From positions 1-38,196 of the forward strand of contig JAFDZL010000439.1 in NCBI GenBank assembly GCA_018266935.1: a stretch of DNA of 38,196 bases, read 5' to 3'. Numbering within the stretch: position 1 is the stretch's first letter; the number at the start of each line of letters is the position of its first letter. The stretch comes from Bacteroidota bacterium. Its GTDB lineage: Bacteria > Bacteroidota > Bacteroidia > Sphingobacteriales > Sphingobacteriaceae. The notes beneath the pieces were generated by a model, which did no database searches, was not told where the DNA came from, and saw nothing but the letters and a program-made list of their open reading frames with translations. Positions 2,300 through 20,652 of this stretch are shown piece by piece. A program made the translations under genes and the position numbers.

Positions 2300-4756
2300 A
2301 TGCCTTTATTTTATCGTGATCATATTCTAGTAAATGAACACACCGAATCCCTTCCTTATACTTCAATAATTCAGGGCCGAAGCCCGGTATTTCCGAGGAC
2401 AAATTTAGACCGGATAGAGCATGGCATTACGATCCGGGAGGAATTTAATGCTGCCGTCGAAGCATTTATAGCCGATGCGCCTTCAGACGATTTTATTTAC
2501 ATTGTTTTCAAATCAGCGCCGGGGTTTCTGCTTGATCTGGAAAAAATGAATAATCGCAATTTTCGGTTAGCATCTTACCGTAAATTGAATGGCGATCCTA
2601 ATGATGAGGTTTATGAAGCAACTGTTTTGTTAAATCAAAAAGCGATTGCTCAGTTTCTCGTGAAAATTGAACAATTTATCAATGAGGATACAAAAAAAGG
2701 AAACCCTAAACACCAGACATTAATTGCTAATTTAGAGCAGATCAGGGCTGCGACTTTAGAAAGCTTTTGGTTAGAGCCAGAGCTCCCATTTCCCGATGCA
2801 GCCGAAGACTTATGGTGGGAAATTTGGTTGAGCAGGGATTTGGATTTACAACCGTCGGATCAGCTAAATCCGATATTTAACTTACTGACGAATGGCGGAA
2901 TGCAGGTTGGGATGACTCGCTGGTTGGCATTTCCCGATAATTTGGTTTTTCTGGTCCGCGGAAACTCTACGCAGCTTGGTGCAACCATCCTTTACACGGA
3001 CCGGCTTACCGAATTACGCAAGCCCAGGGAAACGGCAGAATATTTTACTTTTCTCGACAAACCGGAACAAGCTGCATGGATGCAGGATTTGCTGGATAGA
3101 TTGGACATGCAATTGGATGGTAGCAATATTGCCGTTTGTTTATTGGATACAGGCGTGAATAGAGAGCACCCGCTTTTAGCACCAATTATACCTGAGAATA
3201 ATCTCGATGCGATTGAACCTAATTGGAATCGCCGGGATACACATCATGCCGGACATGGTACGCCTATGGCTGGATTAGCAATTTATGGCGATCTATCCGA
3301 AGTTTTACCAGGCAATTTGCCTATTCAGATATTCCATCACTTAGCGAGCATCATGATCATTGCGGCAAGTCAACCAAATGATCCGTTATTATACGGGGCG
3401 ATTACGCAGGAGGCGATTGCCAGGGCGGAGATCATTCATCCAAATTTTAAAAGATTGGTTTCTATGGCAGTCACATCGACTGAAGTGATCCATAGGGGGC
3501 GGCCGTCTTCTTGGGCAGCCGCAATTGATCAGTCATTGTTCGGAGACGTCGATGAGCCTAATGAAAATACCTTGCTTTTTATTTCAGCAGGGAATTTACC
3601 GTTATTACAAAGGCAGGATTTTCCTGAAGCCAACCATATGGCTAGTATTGAAGACCCAGCACAAGCCTTTAACGCGATAACAGTTGGCGCTTATACAATC
3701 AAAGACCAGATCGATCTCCAGCTTTTTCCAGGGGCAACTTTGGTTGCTCAGCATGGACAAATGTCTCCGTCCAATACGACCTCCATGACTTGGTTTCGAG
3801 AATGGCCCAGGAAGCCAGATATTGTAATGGAAGGTGGTAACCACGGCATACATCAGGGAGGTCTAATCGATCCTGACTCTTTGCAACTATTATCTACGGG
3901 TAAGGGTGGCTTGGGAAGGCCTTGGTTTACCGCATTTGGTGATACGAGTGCCTCAACTGCTTTAGCTGCAAAATTTGCGGCTGAGCTTTATCATGCATAT
4001 CCGGATTATTGGCCGGAGACGATCCGTGGCTTGACGATCCATTCTGCAGATTGGACAAATGGAATGCTTGGCGGGCATACGATCAATGACCTAGATGCTA
4101 ACCAAAAGATAAGTTTAATTGCGACGGTGGGTTATGGTGTGCCACATTTTGGTCGAGCGAGATACAGTGCTAGCAACTCCCTTTCACTCGTTATTCAACG
4201 AACATTAAAACCGTATAAGTATGAAGATAACAGGATAAAAACGGAAGATTTTCATATGATCGAATTACCATGGCCATCCGAGGTACTATCGGAGATGTTG
4301 GCTACACAGGTCAGGCTAAAAGTTACTTTATCTTATTTTGTTGAACCTAATCCGGGGAATAAACAATATGATATGGCAGCGAGCTACCGTTCTCACGGTT
4401 TGAGGTTTAAAATGAAGGATACATATGAAGGGGATGATGTGTTTGCGGCAAGGATCAGTAAAGCGGCCCGGACAGAAGATGATTATATCGCGGAAGGTGG
4501 CGAGCATTGGATTCTAGGCAACCAAATTAGGGATAAAGGAAGTGTCCATAAGGATATCTGGCAAGGCACTGCGGCTGAACTCTCTACTCGCAATAAAATT
4601 GCAGTTTATCCGGTGGGTGGATGGTGGAAATTTCGCAAGATTTTGGGAAGATATAATTACTCTGTTCGCTATAGTCTGATTGTTACCGTTGAAACGCCTG
4701 ATAATGGGATAGACATTTATACCCCAGTTAGGGTTTTAGTACCGATTGAGATTTGA
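2300..4756 (+). CDS. ietS: Subtilisin-like (S8) serine protease, IetS-like
   Basis: An 818-residue protein without signal peptide, hence probably cytoplasmic. Residues 1-270 form an unassigned N-terminal region. The S8 domain follows with a complete catalytic set: Asp283 in LLDTG, His319 in GHGT, oxyanion Asn432 in SAGN, and Ser550 in GDTSAS. The last is a variant of the usual GTSMA motif. About 250 further residues form a beta-rich C-terminal part ending in a YSLIVTVETP strand region. It is co-transcribed with the AAA+ gene. In the known IetAS pair the protease is the toxic effector and the ATPase its controller; here that is inference. The intact triad argues for an active enzyme. Its length is close to that expected for IetS proteins. 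Confidence 0.8.
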   Translation: MPLFYRDHILVNEHTESLPYTSIIQGRSPVFPRTNLDRIEHGITIREEFNAAVEAFIADAPSDDFIYIVFKSAPGFLLDLEKMNNRNFRLASYRKLNGDPNDEVYEATVLLNQKAIAQFLVKIEQFINEDTKKGNPKHQTLIANLEQIRAATLESFWLEPELPFPDAAEDLWWEIWLSRDLDLQPSDQLNPIFNLLTNGGMQVGMTRWLAFPDNLVFLVRGNSTQLGATILYTDRLTELRKPRETAEYFTFLDKPEQAAWMQDLLDRLDMQLDGSNIAVCLLDTGVNREHPLLAPIIPENNLDAIEPNWNRRDTHHAGHGTPMAGLAIYGDLSEVLPGNLPIQIFHHLASIMIIAASQPNDPLLYGAITQEAIARAEIIHPNFKRLVSMAVTSTEVIHRGRPSSWAAAIDQSLFGDVDEPNENTLLFISAGNLPLLQRQDFPEANHMASIEDPAQAFNAITVGAYTIKDQIDLQLFPGATLVAQHGQMSPSNTTSMTWFREWPRKPDIVMEGGNHGIHQGGLIDPDSLQLLSTGKGGLGRPWFTAFGDTSASTALAAKFAAELYHAYPDYWPETIRGLTIHSADWTNGMLGGHTINDLDANQKISLIATVGYGVPHFGRARYSASNSLSLVIQRTLKPYKYEDNRIKTEDFHMIELPWPSEVLSEMLATQVRLKVTLSYFVEPNPGNKQYDMAASYRSHGLRFKMKDTYEGDDVFAARISKAARTEDDYIAEGGEHWILGNQIRDKGSVHKDIWQGTAAELSTRNKIAVYPVGGWWKFRKILGRYNYSVRYSLIVTVETPDNGIDIYTPVRVLVPIEI

Positions 4757-13646: not shown

Positions 13647-14489
13647 CTATTTTTTCTTTTTCCCCTTAGTTTCCTTTAGGATTTGTTTATCTCCGCTTTC
13701 GAATTTTCGCTGGACTTTTTTCAGGTCTTCGCCCGCGGGCAGATTTTCGGGCCTGATGCCTCTTTGCAAAAGCATTTCGCGTACCGCGGCGCTGTTATCA
13801 ATGTGTTCCTTTTCGATAGGGTTATGACCTTTCAAGTCTTTACTTTGCACATTCAATCCCGTCATCTCCGCGGCCAGATCCTTAGCCTTTATGCTGATGG
13901 TAGGCAAAAAATCAGCAAGCGGTCGGTTATCGGGCATACCCATTTTCCTTTTCAGTTGCTGTGTGGATAATCTGAATAAAGCCTGATCGCCTTTTGAACG
14001 GATTATGGCAAAACCCTGGTTATCCACGCCCCGTTCATACAAAATACCTGAAAGTTGTCTTTCGGTTTGGCTTAATTTTTCACGCGCTTTCACCCGTTCA
14101 TAGTCCAGCAGCCGTTGCTCAATTATTTCAGCACGGCGCGTCTGCACCGCAAAGTAGTTTTGCGCGAAGGCTATTTGTGGCTTGCGGCTGTCGCCATTTT
14201 GAGCAACCAGGTAGCAGGCATAACGGGTTAAGGCAATGTCATCAATCGACCTTTCTGTTTTGGAGCCTATTTCAACCATTTTCCTGACGTCAGGAAAATG
14301 GTCTCCAATTTCTTCACCTGCATTTTTGCACGACTCTTTCGCTTTTTGGATCACTTTCTCAAAGTTTTCCCATTTGCTGTAGCCCAACAGTATTTGCAGG
14401 TCGCGCGCGCTCCAGCATTCAACCCCTTCAATTTCGGCAGCGGCCGATTCAAATAATGCAAACAGTTCTAAAATTTCTTCCTTCTTCAT
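13647..14489 (-). CDS. dinD: DinD-like DNA damage-inducible protein
   Basis: A 280-residue protein. The N-terminal BRO-N-like region contains [19 protein letters not shown], and the family's [20 protein letters not shown] segment lies near 81-100. The C-terminal half has the [21 protein letters not shown] motif and a very basic end (KGKKKK). E. coli DinD is SOS-induced and modulates RecA filaments. No obvious LexA-type box is seen upstream, so SOS control is not shown. DinD genes often travel on accessory regions, and here it lies between a toxin-antitoxin remnant and a restriction-type operon. Confidence 0.85.
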
Positions 14490-14754: not shown

Positions 14755-15954
14755 TTATTTAAATATTATTTTCTGATCATTAGTGTCATATCTATAATTA
14801 ACAATTTCACCCGATATTAATAACTCTATTGCTTCATTAATAACTTCCAATGGCACGATAAACCATTCTCTCGGTGTTATTCGGCGATTCTCTGTGTCAT
14901 ATATATCGATGTCTAAACAGGTTGCTCCAAAAAACCGGTGAATAAGATTTTCAAAACCGTGAGTATTAAGATTATAACAACGGTAGGTTGCAATTAATTC
15001 CACATCCGAAAAAAGATAGGTCGCTTCTTTTGATGCATTCTTAATACGTTCGCCGATGTTTGATATGGAAAAACCAATTTTATATAAATCTTTGAGCTGC
15101 GCGATCTGATAATTGGTCGATTTAGATTTTAGTATATAGACCCAGCCACTCTGAATGTCTTCTTCAGCAAGAAAATTTGAATTTTCAGAAAATTCAGTAA
15201 GATAGCTATCGGTTGGCTTGGTAATCAATCGGCCATCCTTTTGGAGGGCTTTGCCTAATGAGCGAAATAGTAAATTGGACTTTGTGCCATTTTCAAATAT
15301 CGTAACAGTACGTCCGTCAAGTTGCACGCGACCTCCAGTATTTACGCCCCTTAATTCTTGTTGAACCTCCGCCGACTCTAAATAAAGTAATAACCCATCT
15401 AAAAGATAAAAATTATCTGGTTGAAGGTTATTTTCAAGTTTATCGAATTTTTTGGTCCTCCTTTTACCATTTTTTAAATCTCGATGAACCTGCTGGAACA
15501 TTAAATCGTATTTTATGAAATCCTTTTCGGGAATCGGCTGTCTTTGTGCTATAAAATCAGTTTCGGCACGTTTATCTGGTCTCGGAGTATGTTTGAATTC
15601 AAATATTGATATATCACCATTGGTATTTAGAAGGCCTTCCTCATCATCGTTTAAGATATCACTAAAAGTCTTTTTCTCGATTTCTACATGGCCTAACAGG
15701 TTAAATCGGTCAAAGGGTTTTAGTAATTTCTTTTTTTCTTCATCGGCCCGAAAACCTTTCAATTTTGCCATCAAGTTATATTCTGACATGCTATCTTTTT
15801 CTGGTTCTCTACTATTTCTCTCAAAAAAAGAATTTATTTCTTCAAACGAATCAATTAAACGATCTTCATCCGTTTTGGTATTTGATGCTTTTTCATGCGG
15901 TTTTAATAAACCAAACTCGTCATCATTAAAAATATCATCGAGTGTTTTAGCCAT
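14755..15954 (-). CDS. GIY-YIG nuclease of a three-gene restriction-type operon
   Basis: 399 residues. The C-terminal third is a T5orf172-type GIY-YIG domain: VYI (272-274), YKIG (291-294), Arg303, Glu335 in FENLIHRFF, then REWF, so the catalytic residues are present. The N-terminal half is acidic and contains two copies of one motif, LDDIFNDDEFGLL (5-17) and FSDILNDDEEGLL (97-109), joined by a helical stretch. This could be a docking or dimerisation module. The middle region (about 180-245) is unassigned. Its start overlaps the helicase stop by 8 nt, so the two are translated together. It is the last gene of the operon and probably supplies the DNA cleavage activity, given the degenerate nuclease motif in the methyltransferase. 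Confidence 0.8.
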   Translation of the reverse strand: MAKTLDDIFNDDEFGLLKPHEKASNTKTDEDRLIDSFEEINSFFERNSREPEKDSMSEYNLMAKLKGFRADEEKKKLLKPFDRFNLLGHVEIEKKTFSDILNDDEEGLLNTNGDISIFEFKHTPRPDKRAETDFIAQRQPIPEKDFIKYDLMFQQVHRDLKNGKRRTKKFDKLENNLQPDNFYLLDGLLLYLESAEVQQELRGVNTGGRVQLDGRTVTIFENGTKSNLLFRSLGKALQKDGRLITKPTDSYLTEFSENSNFLAEEDIQSGWVYILKSKSTNYQIAQLKDLYKIGFSISNIGERIKNASKEATYLFSDVELIATYRCYNLNTHGFENLIHRFFGATCLDIDIYDTENRRITPREWFIVPLEVINEAIELLISGEIVNYRYDTNDQKIIFK

Positions 15955-17944
15955 TTTGCATACGTTTTCTTTTTTCTTCCCGTAAAAATATTAACGCCTG
16001 CGCCATTCTTTGCTCCTTAGGATCAAATGACTGTATGCTTGGCTGTTCCCCGGTTTTAGCTACCCATTCCTTGATTTTAGGCCACAACAAAATTGCTTCT
16101 TCTTCTGTCATGTCTATTTTAGACACTGCTATTGTATCTTGTATAGCTCTCAGCACTGAAGTCGTGACAGACTTGGACAATATTTCGAATGCTTTCTGAA
16201 ATGGATTTATGGTATCAATAAGATCGATGTGTATGTCGTCTATATTCACAAAGCTTCCAGCCATTCGTATGAATTTTTTATTCCCCTGCTCTTCTATAGT
16301 GCTATTTTTTATAACTGAATCAACTACAACATATTGCCTTATAGCTTCGACGTCGTCTTCACTCAAATCAGGATACACTTCCCGGATAATTTTGGGAATT
16401 AATACTGTGTTTATTATTTCTGGCTCTAAATTGCCTGGCATCGCCTTCAACATAGTGTCATCCTGAAGAATTTTGGCCTTAAGATCATTGAGATCGCTCT
16501 CTATAATGTCTTTTGCCCGTTGCGATGTTGGGAGCTTAAATCCTTTTATATGAATTGTATTTTCAACATCATTATCGTCATCATTGTCTGGAAACTTCGG
16601 CTTGAATTTGAAATTAGGCGCTAAAACTTGTTCCATAAGTAAAGATGCTGTAATGGCTTTAAGCATATTGTTTACGGCCAATTTAACATCATCATCTACA
16701 GCATCAGGTTGTGCAATCAGATTGGTAAACTGCGCATGCGTTTTATTTTCACTGTCACGTGTCGCCCGGCCTATAATTTGGATAATTTCCGTTAACGATC
16801 CTCTATAACCGATTGTTAAAGCATGTTCGCAGAAAGGCCAATCAAAGCCCTCCTTTGCCATGCCAAGGGCAATAATCATGTCAATATCATCAGGACTGCT
16901 TATCCCTCTTAAATAAGCCACAACTTTGTCTCGGTCCCGTGGAATATCATTAACTAAATCTGCAATTTTTAAGATCCGCCCACTCCTTTTGCTTTTTACA
17001 TATAATATACCGGTTTCATTGTCTTGATATTCAAGTTCACCAATACAATCGATAACATGGCTTACTTCTTCATATTTTTGCTTTGAAGATTCGGCAGAAT
17101 TTACGCTTGGTATGTGAATTATTGTTTTTAAATTTTCATCTAAAATTTCTTCTAACGCGGACACGTCTCGATCAGGTTGCTTCTTATAATATCGACCTTG
17201 ATAAAAATGATAACCTATGCCTAACGATTTTAAATGTTCATAGCCATTCAATTGATCGTAGTAGTTGTAAGTTACTTTAGAGAATTTAGCTTCATCGTCA
17301 GGTAATAGCACAGGAATATTATCGCCCCGAAAATATGAACCGGTCATCGCGATTATATGAGCATTTGATTTTTGCATCACATTTCTAATAACCTCCCCTA
17401 AACGATTGTCTTCTTCGGCAGAAACATGATGGAATTCGTCAATAGCTAATAAACAACCATTTAAATCTTTTTCATCTAATCCTTCAAACGCGAAACGAAG
17501 GGTAGCATGCGTGCATATAAGGATTTGCTCATTGCTAATAAGAAAATTTAAGAACGCTTGAACTTTACTTTTATCACTTCCTGGAGTGCACAGATTATAC
17601 TTTTGATTTGGTTCCCAATTAAAAAAGAAGCCATATTTCACCAATTCTGTCGGGCTAAATGAATTACCAATCGAGCGCTCCGGTACTGCGACGATGACCT
17701 TTTTTATGTATTGATTTGCTAACTTGTCTAACGCTATAAACATTAAAGCGCGAGACTTTCCCGAAGCAGGCGGAGCTTTTAATAAAAGATATTGCGCAGT
17801 ACGAGCTTCAAATGCCTTAGCCTGCATCTCACGCATTCCTAAGTTATTTGTTTTCTTACTGTCGCCAGTTTGGGCGTAATGAACCTCGACCAAATTGATC
17901 GGTTTGGCGTATTTTGATAAGTTGTTTATGTCTGTTTTATTCAC
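15947..17944 (-). CDS. SF2 (DEAD/DEAH-type) helicase of the restriction-type operon
   Basis: 665 residues with a full helicase core: motif I APPASGKS (57-64), motif II DEFH (169-172), motif III TGS (201-203), and motif VI QIIGRATRD (389-397) in the second RecA-like domain after EGFDWP. About 250 C-terminal residues are unassigned. The start is a GTG at 17944 that overlaps the methyltransferase stop as GTGA, a translational coupling signal. It resembles the translocase parts of type I/III restriction enzymes and probably moves along DNA between recognition and cleavage. The start could lie further in, but the coupling and the N-terminal residues favour the GTG. Confidence 0.85.
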   Translation of the reverse strand: MNKTDINNLSKYAKPINLVEVHYAQTGDSKKTNNLGMREMQAKAFEARTAQYLLLKAPPASGKSRALMFIALDKLANQYIKKVIVAVPERSIGNSFSPTELVKYGFFFNWEPNQKYNLCTPGSDKSKVQAFLNFLISNEQILICTHATLRFAFEGLDEKDLNGCLLAIDEFHHVSAEEDNRLGEVIRNVMQKSNAHIIAMTGSYFRGDNIPVLLPDDEAKFSKVTYNYYDQLNGYEHLKSLGIGYHFYQGRYYKKQPDRDVSALEEILDENLKTIIHIPSVNSAESSKQKYEEVSHVIDCIGELEYQDNETGILYVKSKRSGRILKIADLVNDIPRDRDKVVAYLRGISSPDDIDMIIALGMAKEGFDWPFCEHALTIGYRGSLTEIIQIIGRATRDSENKTHAQFTNLIAQPDAVDDDVKLAVNNMLKAITASLLMEQVLAPNFKFKPKFPDNDDDNDVENTIHIKGFKLPTSQRAKDIIESDLNDLKAKILQDDTMLKAMPGNLEPEIINTVLIPKIIREVYPDLSEDDVEAIRQYVVVDSVIKNSTIEEQGNKKFIRMAGSFVNIDDIHIDLIDTINPFQKAFEILSKSVTTSVLRAIQDTIAVSKIDMTEEEAILLWPKIKEWVAKTGEQPSIQSFDPKEQRMAQALIFLREEKRKRMQNG

Positions 17945-20652
17945 GCAGTTTTATTTCTAGCCTTTTGAATCTTTTGTTTGGCAAAAAGGGTATTTTTTTT
18001 GGTCATTTCTTCATACAATTTAAAGAGATATTCCAACCGTTCTACGTCATTCTGAAACGGGCTAAGCCGATATAGTCGATCCACGGCTTCATCTAGTTCG
18101 CGGTGGGCTTGTCTTAATCCCAATGGCATTGTTTCCGGATTATATAACCAAGCCATAGTTTTTTCCGGGTATTTCGCTCGCTCATCCAACACTTGGAACA
18201 CGTATTGACTAACAGTTTCTTTCTGTTTATTGCTTATGTCTGGAAGTGGGAAAGTGTTGTAACATAATTTTGCCGAATAACGGTAATCTGTTTTTAATTT
18301 CCCACCAACAGTATCAACCCAAACCATATGCATTTTGGAATGAAGAATTCCAAACAACCAGGACTGAGCATCATAGACAACCAATGCTGAATTGCTTACA
18401 ATCGTATTTGAATCTAGAAAACCCATTGGAATATATTCTCTTCGCTGAGACGACACCCCCGGGACAATCAACTGATTTTCAATCGCCGTATTTCTATCTC
18501 TGAATTGATGAGAGCGACTTGCTAATTGCTTTGTCCCAGCGTCTTTGCTTTTCAATCTGTGATTTGTAACAATGTCAATGCGCGATTTAATAAGCGAAAT
18601 TTGTTTAGCATCATCCAAATCAACGTCTTCTATCCAAAGGCAATATCTCTTATTGCCGTTAAGAAACTCATGTGAACCGAGCAGTCTTCGTAAATATCGG
18701 CCTGCAGATACGTTGTTTCTTAACAAATCGTCTTTTTCGCTTTCAGAGAGTATTAGTCCGCCGCCGTCGTTTGGCATGTTTCCAAAATTCATTCTAGGAA
18801 ATTTAGAAATCGACTTCCCCGATTCGTATATATAAATATCGCTGCTATCAATTAAGTAGGCGTTGATGTTTTTAACTTCCTTCCTTATTCTGGCATCATA
18901 CAAGTACTTTGGTAAATTGCAACTGTTTCTCAACCCGATAATAACAACTGAAACTCCAGCATTCCCTTTAGCATTATTTGTCCATTTGAAAGAATCATAA
19001 GCAAAATCAATCTCCACTTTTCCCGAAAGAATATTTGGCCATAATAAGCTAACCTGTTGTCCTTGGGTTATAGAATTTGTAGATACAAATGCGCATTTTA
19101 TATTAAAACCTTCTAGATATTGTTTGGCCTTATAAAACCAACAGGAAATATAGTCTAGGTCACGATATTTTTGCAGGTGGCCGAATATAGCATCCATATC
19201 TTTTTTTTGATCTTCAGCTTGAACTCTCGCGCCTAAATATGGAGGATTACCTATGACATATATTTCATCGGTTTTAGATTTTGAACATACCGATGACCAA
19301 TTAACATTTAATGAGTTTTCACAGATAATATGTCCAGCTTCCTTCAGTGGAAGGATTGGTTTTGATTGTCCATAACCTTCCAGCATTTCTTCGAAGATTT
19401 TATTCATTTGATGTTCGGCAAGCCAGAGTGAAAGTAAAGCCATTTCGTGGGCAAAATCTTTTATCTCAATGCCATAGAATTGTGATAATTGAACACTTGT
19501 AAAATATAATAGCTTTTTACCTTGTTCCGCATCTAAATCAACAAGCCGTTGAATAATCTTAATTTCCAATAAGCGGATTTCCTTATATGTGATGATTAAA
19601 AAATTTCCGCTGCCGCAAGCCGGGTCAAAAAACTTAATTTTTGATATCCGATTGATTAATTTTTTCAGACCAGTTATACTATTCTGGTTTCTATTAAACT
19701 CATTGTATAGATCATTTAGAAATAATGGTTCGATAAGCTTCTTTATGTTTGGAACGGAAGTGTAATGCATTCCTAAATCGCTTCGCTCTTCAGGATCAGC
19801 CACTGCCTGTATCATTGAACCAAAAATATCTGGGTTGATTTCGCTCCATTGCAGATTGCCACATTCAAGCAAAATGTCTCTAGATTTTCTAGAAAATCTT
19901 GGACTTCTAATGTCATCTCTAAAGAGCCCTCCATTTACATAAGGGAATGCATTTAAATAAGATGGGAAATTACCATGTTCGGAATTTAGTTTTTGAAAAA
20001 GGCTATGTAAGAATTCATGTAAATCAGATCCATTTTCAGAGGTATTGTTCGCTAGGGTTTCTGTAAAAATACTTTCTTTTTCAAATATGCCAGTGTCCTC
20101 CGCGAAGAAACAGAATAACAAGCGTGATAAAAACAAATTAAGCTGATGTGTGCCTTCTAAAAGAATGTCAGGATCATCGGTTACAAGAATATCATATAAT
20201 TTGGCCAGTTGATAGGCTGCATCTCTGTCCGCTTTGTTGTCATTTGAGGCCTTGTAAATTTCGGCTCCTGTTAATGGTAAAAAGAAATCGAAATATTTAG
20301 GTAACTCAATTAAGTTTATATCTCTATTTATGCCAGTCTTTAGGTCTTTTGCAACTAACGTTTTAAAATCTGTAACTATAATAAACCTCGGGCGGTGCTT
20401 TATAATCTCATCGGTTTTAGAATATTCTTCAGTTTTGATCAGCAATTGATCGTGTGATGCGACATTGAAAAAAACTTTATTTTTATATAAAACTGCTCCA
20501 GAAACTTTCGAAAGATTAAAATCTCCTTTTTTTAACCTCGTAATTGAAGTTTTCGAAATGCCATACGATAGCAAGAAATCATAAATGAAATCATCTGGAC
20601 CTAAATCGTTAACTAATTTGATAAGATTATCTTCTATTTCTTTTGACGTCAT
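17941..20652 (-). CDS. MmeI-like N6-adenine DNA methyltransferase, nuclease motif degenerate
   Basis: 903 residues. The order is that of MmeI-like (type IIL) enzymes: N-terminal nuclease-like region (1-125), helical spacer (about 140-300), methyltransferase with motif I DPACGSGNF (343-351) and catalytic NPPY (469-472), then a target-recognition region and C-terminal helices (about 640-903). Where MmeI-like nucleases carry ExK on the strand after the acidic residue, this protein reads FFNVAS (N63, A65), so the two catalytic residues appear lost and the domain is probably structural. It is the first gene of the operon with the helicase and the GIY-YIG protein. It probably provides both self-protection and recognition. 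The operon is clearly AT-richer than its surroundings. Confidence 0.85.
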   Translation of the reverse strand: MTSKEIEDNLIKLVNDLGPDDFIYDFLLSYGISKTSITRLKKGDFNLSKVSGAVLYKNKVFFNVASHDQLLIKTEEYSKTDEIIKHRPRFIIVTDFKTLVAKDLKTGINRDINLIELPKYFDFFLPLTGAEIYKASNDNKADRDAAYQLAKLYDILVTDDPDILLEGTHQLNLFLSRLLFCFFAEDTGIFEKESIFTETLANNTSENGSDLHEFLHSLFQKLNSEHGNFPSYLNAFPYVNGGLFRDDIRSPRFSRKSRDILLECGNLQWSEINPDIFGSMIQAVADPEERSDLGMHYTSVPNIKKLIEPLFLNDLYNEFNRNQNSITGLKKLINRISKIKFFDPACGSGNFLIITYKEIRLLEIKIIQRLVDLDAEQGKKLLYFTSVQLSQFYGIEIKDFAHEMALLSLWLAEHQMNKIFEEMLEGYGQSKPILPLKEAGHIICENSLNVNWSSVCSKSKTDEIYVIGNPPYLGARVQAEDQKKDMDAIFGHLQKYRDLDYISCWFYKAKQYLEGFNIKCAFVSTNSITQGQQVSLLWPNILSGKVEIDFAYDSFKWTNNAKGNAGVSVVIIGLRNSCNLPKYLYDARIRKEVKNINAYLIDSSDIYIYESGKSISKFPRMNFGNMPNDGGGLILSESEKDDLLRNNVSAGRYLRRLLGSHEFLNGNKRYCLWIEDVDLDDAKQISLIKSRIDIVTNHRLKSKDAGTKQLASRSHQFRDRNTAIENQLIVPGVSSQRREYIPMGFLDSNTIVSNSALVVYDAQSWLFGILHSKMHMVWVDTVGGKLKTDYRYSAKLCYNTFPLPDISNKQKETVSQYVFQVLDERAKYPEKTMAWLYNPETMPLGLRQAHRELDEAVDRLYRLSPFQNDVERLEYLFKLYEEMTKKNTLFAKQKIQKARNKTA

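Follow-up and report, generated by a model that had tools for sequence, protein, structure and literature searches.

The closest described relatives of the locus considered here are the dnmA-yeeB-yeeC genes of Bacillus subtilis and Vibrio crassostreae, which encode, on one strand and in this order, a nuclease-less MmeI homologue, a superfamily 2 (SF2) helicase and a T5orf172/GIY-YIG protein. In B. subtilis, DnmA is a characterised methylase that produces N6-methyladenine (m6A) at the site GACGAG (PMC7261158). It is one of the MmeI homologues that lack an endonuclease motif and are flanked by yeeB/yeeC-like genes, and a Type I-like system has been suggested for such homologues together with their flanking genes (Morgan 2009, as cited in PMC7261158). 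The trio is conserved across species (PMC9973331) and has been associated with defence islands (Makarova 2011, as cited in PMC9973331), and deletions of dnmA and yeeB in V. crassostreae are reported to increase sensitivity to some phages (as relayed in PMC9973331). Here we describe a trio of this kind from a Bacteroidota bacterium of the Sphingobacteriaceae (assembly GCA_018266935.1, contig JAFDZL010000439.1, positions 1 to 38,196; this whole stretch of 38,196 nucleotides is referred to as the window). We give a probability of roughly 0.7 to the reading that the trio is a restriction system, in which the methylase reads the site, the helicase is the motor and the GIY-YIG protein is a separate nuclease.

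The window trio consists of three open frames on the same strand, in the order methylase, helicase, GIY-YIG protein, with their motifs intact (Table 1). Judged by its protein families, its gene order and the published description, it belongs to the known but barely studied DnmA-YeeB-YeeC kind, and its interest lies in being an intact and testable member, together with the family-wide statistics given below, rather than in being a new kind. It appears to be an intact restriction-modification operon, full-length against its relatives, and thus offers an alternative to the apparently inactive copy of B. subtilis, which does not restrict and whose YeeB and YeeC are reported as shortened. The B. 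subtilis genome, used as a control, matches PF20466 and PF20473.

A search of 395 genomes of the phylum with PF20466 supplied methylase loci, the GIY-YIG or the helicase protein served to gather trio loci, and a helicase-anchored survey contributed a further 80 genomic and 43 viral loci, the genomic set being the best 80 of at least 560 helicase relatives. Where the sequence extends at least 6.5 kb upstream of the helicase, all loci (55/55 genomic, 26/26 viral) have an MmeI-type methylase on that side and on the strand of the helicase; where it extends at least 1.5 kb downstream, the GIY-YIG gene is there in 76/76 genomic and 38 of 41 viral loci. The recurrence of the three-gene order in every testable genomic relative, with Pfam E-values reaching 1e-102, is far beyond chance.

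The D-E-K catalytic triad of the PD-(D/E)xK nuclease is present in 0 of 102 full-length trio methylases. By comparison, all stand-alone methylases with a complete N-terminus, a set drawn from one phylum, have an intact D-ExK, with a pattern such as IDLFWKGTLVVEHKS. Aligned columns were used for this count instead of the loose regular expression D-x6-16-[DE]xK, which is useless here, giving chance matches in 65 of the 102 trio proteins. In a tree of the methylases built without the nuclease domain, the 102 trio and 32 stand-alone sequences are split exactly by one bipartition (support 1.0), so that the loss of the nuclease looks like one event, and the numbers of sequences should not be taken as numbers of events. 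The linkage and the lost triad together support what an earlier note, made from the letters of this DNA alone, had proposed, namely a three-gene restriction-type system with its nuclease outside the methylase.

The window methylase matches five MmeI domains of Pfam along its entire length (MmeI_N, 3e-25; MmeI_hel; MmeI_Mtase, 1e-102; MmeI_TRD, 4e-81; and MmeI_C), and the solved MmeI (5hr4) matches it from residue 86 onward (phmmer, 8e-190). Its structural model (predicted local distance difference test (pLDDT) 88, predicted template modelling score (pTM) 0.75) aligns with 5hr4 over 727 residues at 40% identity (Z 42). Thus the MmeI-like character and the retained DPACGSGNF and NPPY motifs recognised in the earlier note are confirmed, and so is its reading of Asn-Val-Ala in place of the nuclease ExK, which alignment with stand-alone homologues places at residues 63 to 65. 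The N-terminal domain is folded confidently in the model, with strands 54–56 and 60–64 around the lost site; the alignment with the solved MmeI chain starts at residue 160 of that chain and so leaves this domain out of the superposition.

PADLOC names the methylase (17941-20652) a Type IIG restriction enzyme-methyltransferase with 1034 bits, despite the lost nuclease site, which would suit a Type IIL enzyme acting alone through a cryptic nuclease site, the two genes after it being unrelated. A PD-(D/E)xK site elsewhere in the methylase was considered and rejected, as no conserved [DE]xK is found in the N-terminal domain in an alignment of 56 relatives, nor in the model; the earlier note had named such a site as one finding that would overturn its proposal, absence of co-occurrence in other genomes being the other. 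The missing triad and the fixed linkage to the helicase and GIY-YIG genes also contradict a stand-alone enzyme, as does a test of DnmA that showed no endonuclease activity (Morgan 2009, as cited in PMC7261158), and we give this explanation practically no weight. Given the PADLOC label on a methylase without nuclease, annotation pipelines may overcount Type IIG enzymes.

The other two proteins of the trio look active. Relatives of the helicase are 44–84% identical to it over the full length, and besides the motifs listed in Table 1 its TGSYFRGD motif is invariant or nearly so among aligned relatives. In the GIY-YIG protein, the catalytic Arg and Glu pointed out in the earlier note (R303 and E335) are invariant in 82 relatives, together with G270, Y273, K292, G294 and H339. 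Where synonymous divergence is measurable, the ratio of nonsynonymous to synonymous substitution rates (dN/dS) is 0.02–0.10 for the helicase and 0.03–0.16 for the nuclease, i.e. both are under purifying selection across the family.

The part that changes fastest is the target recognition domain (TRD) of the methylase. In 11 pairs of trio loci the TRDs are 32–67% identical, against 83–98% for the helicases and 68–97% for the GIY-YIG proteins, and the TRD clearly ranks lowest in conservation, alone or in a tie, in all pairs but one (L117/L125). If the methylase acts as the recognition subunit of a restriction complex, its TRD should change while motor and nuclease stay, which is the pattern seen. 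With the nuclease lost exactly where a helicase and a GIY-YIG protein are present, and with TRDs turning over on a conserved chassis, ATP-dependent restriction by a GIY-YIG enzyme becomes directly testable.

Plasmids of Ligilactobacillus salivarius provide an independent line of evidence. Their trio methylase gene contains a segment of about 270 bp with an 11-bp inverted repeat, AAAAGACAACG, at both ends. Of 18 records, 4 have the segment in the orientation that keeps the frame open, and 14 have it inverted, with a broken frame; nine of these 14 are near-identical and represent a single source. It lies at 3792-4075 of locus L056 (NZ_CP047413), and is inverted in L233, L234 and L235 and open in L236 and L238. 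Two junction queries, one for each orientation, retrieve mutually exclusive sets of records, and reversal of the segment in silico mends one broken methylase frame. This looks like phase variation; a literature search found no description of this invertible segment. In the examined records with a broken methylase, the genes for helicase and nuclease are both intact, and the two proteins evidently spare the unmodified host DNA when the methylase is missing, implying that the nuclease needs the methylase, although polar effects of the inversion on expression are possible. Normal growth of the B. subtilis ΔdnmA strain (PMC7261158) agrees with a helicase and nuclease that depend on the methylase.

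Several points weigh against a restriction system. The B. subtilis trio does not restrict in transformation (PMC7261158) or against three phages (PMC9973331), and that copy was judged a relic (PMC9973331). A literature search found no biochemical cleavage or ATPase data for any trio member, and to this extent the statement of the earlier note that no characterised example exists still holds; it was wrong for the methylase, given DnmA (PMC7261158), and for a genetic phenotype, given the V. crassostreae deletions (as relayed in PMC9973331). Foldseek returned no GIY-YIG structure for the model of the whole GIY-YIG protein, in which the C-terminal domain is well predicted and the overall pTM is 0.41; in the structure searches (Foldseek, VIA) the middle SH3-like domain filled the match lists. 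Finally, the position of the canonical second tyrosine is a lysine in all members. Hpy188I also has a lysine near this position. In the window protein the GIY motif reads GWVY and the YIG motif YKIG.

If the B. subtilis verdict applied here, the methylase would be a working orphan or regulatory enzyme, and the helicase and nuclease would be passengers left from a dead restriction system, a view favoured by the effect of DnmA methylation on gene expression alongside the missing restriction phenotype (PMC7261158, PMC9973331). However, YeeB and YeeC of B. subtilis themselves lack stretches that are present in V. crassostreae (PMC9973331), whereas the window frames are all open with intact motifs; moreover, helicase and nuclease have dN/dS well below 1 and are both present in every testable genomic relative. 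A relic therefore seems unlikely to us. The unusual GIY-KIG motif and the missing biochemistry would also suit a defence that does not cleave, in which a complex of methylase and helicase keeps unmodified DNA from replicating, with the GIY-YIG domain as an accessory that nicks or regulates and not as the restriction nuclease. In line with this, the methylase model also resembles BrxX/PglX (9ewz, Z 19.4) of BREX (bacteriophage exclusion), a system described as nuclease-less (PMC9122589). Against it, the helicase has the GIY-YIG gene after it in all 76 testable genomic loci, with R, E and H invariant, and we consider such a defence quite improbable.

In the restriction system that we favour, the methylase would use its fused TRD to read a short asymmetric site and mark one adenine, on one strand, as N6-methyl, as predicted from the MmeI and DnmA families. 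At an unmarked site it would recruit or activate the SF2 helicase, which would move or slide along the DNA using ATP, and the GIY-YIG subunit would cut, probably on the encounter of two complexes. In this way a separate nuclease would replace the dead PD-(D/E)xK domain, which may persist for structure or docking. If two opposed sites were needed, hemimodified daughter DNA would be safe, an argument made for MmeI in PMC3874165. That the proteins form a complex, use ATP, cleave and need two sites is suggested by analogy with Type I, Type ISP and CglI (PMC3874165, PMC5737866).

This architecture differs from Types I, III and IIL, as the earlier note had argued, and also from Type ISP. The Type IIL enzyme MmeI (5hr4, PMC4833311) shares with the window methylase the methylase, TRD, spacer and C-terminal domains, including the fused MmeI TRD, but carries a PD-(D/E)xK nuclease itself and needs no helicase, while the window methylase has no intact D-ExK. 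Type ISP enzymes (LlaGI and LlaBIII) likewise combine an asymmetric site, a gamma-methylase with C-terminal TRD and an SF2 motor, and the methylase model matches 4xqk with Z 17.9; they are however single polypeptides with an Mrr-like nuclease (PMC3874165), whereas the window divides the functions among three proteins, one of them with a GIY-YIG domain. Type I systems (HsdR, HsdM and HsdS) resemble the trio in their separate modification and restriction genes, their ATP-driven motor and, as proposed here, a methylase that is needed for restriction, and differ in that the TRD of the window is fused to the methylase, with no separate HsdS, and in that HsdR unites motor and PD-(D/E)xK nuclease in one chain, while motor and GIY-YIG protein of the window are separate open reading frames (ORFs). 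Type III pairs a Mod-type methylase with a Res protein carrying its own nuclease; in the window the methylase is MmeI-type and the helicase matches profiles for DEAD/ResIII and Helicase_C only. CglI (PMC5737866), in which ATP-dependent restriction employs a separate nuclease and a translocating helicase-like ATPase, is a precedent for the proposed mechanism, with no kinship claimed, as it is an R2H2 complex of two proteins. With somewhat better than even confidence, we would go further and regard the trio as a distinct ATP-dependent restriction type, outside Types I, III, ISP and IIL, in which a nuclease-less MmeI-type methylase is the obligatory specificity subunit of helicase and GIY-YIG protein, and is switched by inversion in some hosts.

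Table 1. Features of the trio, in window positions
Feature	Position	Strand	Evidence
MmeI-type gamma-class N6-adenine DNA methyltransferase with fused TRD (DnmA/YeeA type), 903 aa	17941..20652	-	Pfam, phmmer, model against 5hr4
N-terminal domain (residues 19-158), once a PD-(D/E)xK nuclease, without its catalytic triad	20179..20598	-	MmeI_N 3e-25; pLDDT about 90
Degenerate ExK position Asn63-Val64-Ala65	20458..20466	-	alignment with stand-alone homologues reading VEHKS/IEMKS there
S-adenosylmethionine-binding motif DPACGSGNF (343-351)	19600..19626	-	direct reading; nearly all positions at least 90% conserved in alignment
Catalytic motif NPPY (469-472)	19237..19248	-	direct reading; N469 invariant, P470 and P471 nearly so
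TRD, PF20466 (residues 603-806), fastest-diverging part of the system	18235..18846	-	pairwise identities
GTGA overlap (4 nt), methylase stop and helicase GTG start	17941..17944	-	direct DNA reading
SF2 DEAD/ResIII-type helicase (YeeB type), 665 aa, GTG start	15947..17944	-	DEAD 2e-9, ResIII 7e-7
Walker A motif PPASGKS (58-64), helicase	17753..17773	-	invariant in 11 aligned relatives
Walker B/motif II DEFH (169-172), helicase	17429..17440	-	invariant
Motif VI QIIGRATRD (389-397), helicase	16754..16780	-	Q389, G392, R393, R396, D397 invariant
8-nt overlap, helicase end and GIY-YIG start	15947..15954	-	direct DNA reading
T5orf172/MUG113 GIY-YIG nuclease protein (YeeC type), 399 aa	14755..15954	-	MUG113 8e-13, T5orf172 1.5e-9
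GIY-YIG domain (residues 270-378)	14821..15147	-	invariant residues; pLDDT about 90

The two gene overlaps noted earlier were found again on direct reading of the DNA and recur in the family, with the overlap of helicase and GIY-YIG gene being exactly 8 nt in 60/120 loci and the 4-nt overlap of methylase and helicase (16 of 99 loci) being the commonest spacing of these two genes. The G+C content of the window trio is 0.34–0.37 versus 0.48–0.56 in neighbouring genes, and the trio is thus probably a horizontally acquired copy. An empty insertion site was sought; synteny with relatives holds around both PNTB and the subtilase, and in no relative are the two adjacent.

Similar trios in other Bacteroidota were mentioned in the earlier note, and are indeed present there; they are however not confined to this phylum, occurring in Bacteroidota, Pseudomonadota, Campylobacterota, Bacillota, Actinomycetota, Planctomycetes, Lentisphaerae, Chlamydiae, Cyanobacteria, Saccharibacteria and others. 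They are also found on plasmids, for example pMET-1 of Klebsiella, the trio copy of which, used as query, is matched at a coverage of at least 80% in 3 of 5,426 complete Escherichia coli genomes. As for a phage origin, no full-length relative of the helicase was found among 50,697 phage records; matches to the helicase do exist in viral_contigs, which may include prophages. The trios are thus common and mobile across many phyla, with no member found that has demonstrated cleavage.

The genes adjoining the window trio encode DinD and a subtilase, and no separate HsdS is found among them. The DinD (Bro-N) gene lies directly 3' of the trio (13647-14489, minus strand, G+C content 0.457) and is filed by PADLOC under PDC-S13. 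DinD was rejected as a fourth component, as no DinD relative occurs in any other trio locus.

Residues 161-247 of the GIY-YIG protein (15214-15474), its middle domain, show a weak likeness to SH3-like/EF-P domain I folds (Z at most 5.7). At L052:7933-9138 and in L019, L147, L162 and L187 two ORFs encode the protein, one for an N-terminal part of about 90–130 aa and one for the GIY-YIG part, which suggests that these parts are separable modules.

In one locus, L014 (G238:C3:407000-421000), the stretch examined contains the genes for helicase and GIY-YIG protein but no MmeI methylase, and the genes upstream of them appear by eye to be AlbA_2-like, a HerA-like ATPase and SIR2-like. More than 150 bp separate methylase and helicase in 31/71 genomic trio loci, mostly with extra genes (e.g. 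L012, L098, L101, L103, L105, L111, L129, L154 and L207). Across all sets, the genes in this gap include the RhuM family (12 loci), SLFN_AlbA_2 (11 loci), Fic/Doc, the DUF1016/YhcG nuclease and AAA proteins. The gap behaves like a cargo slot, which is empty in the window.

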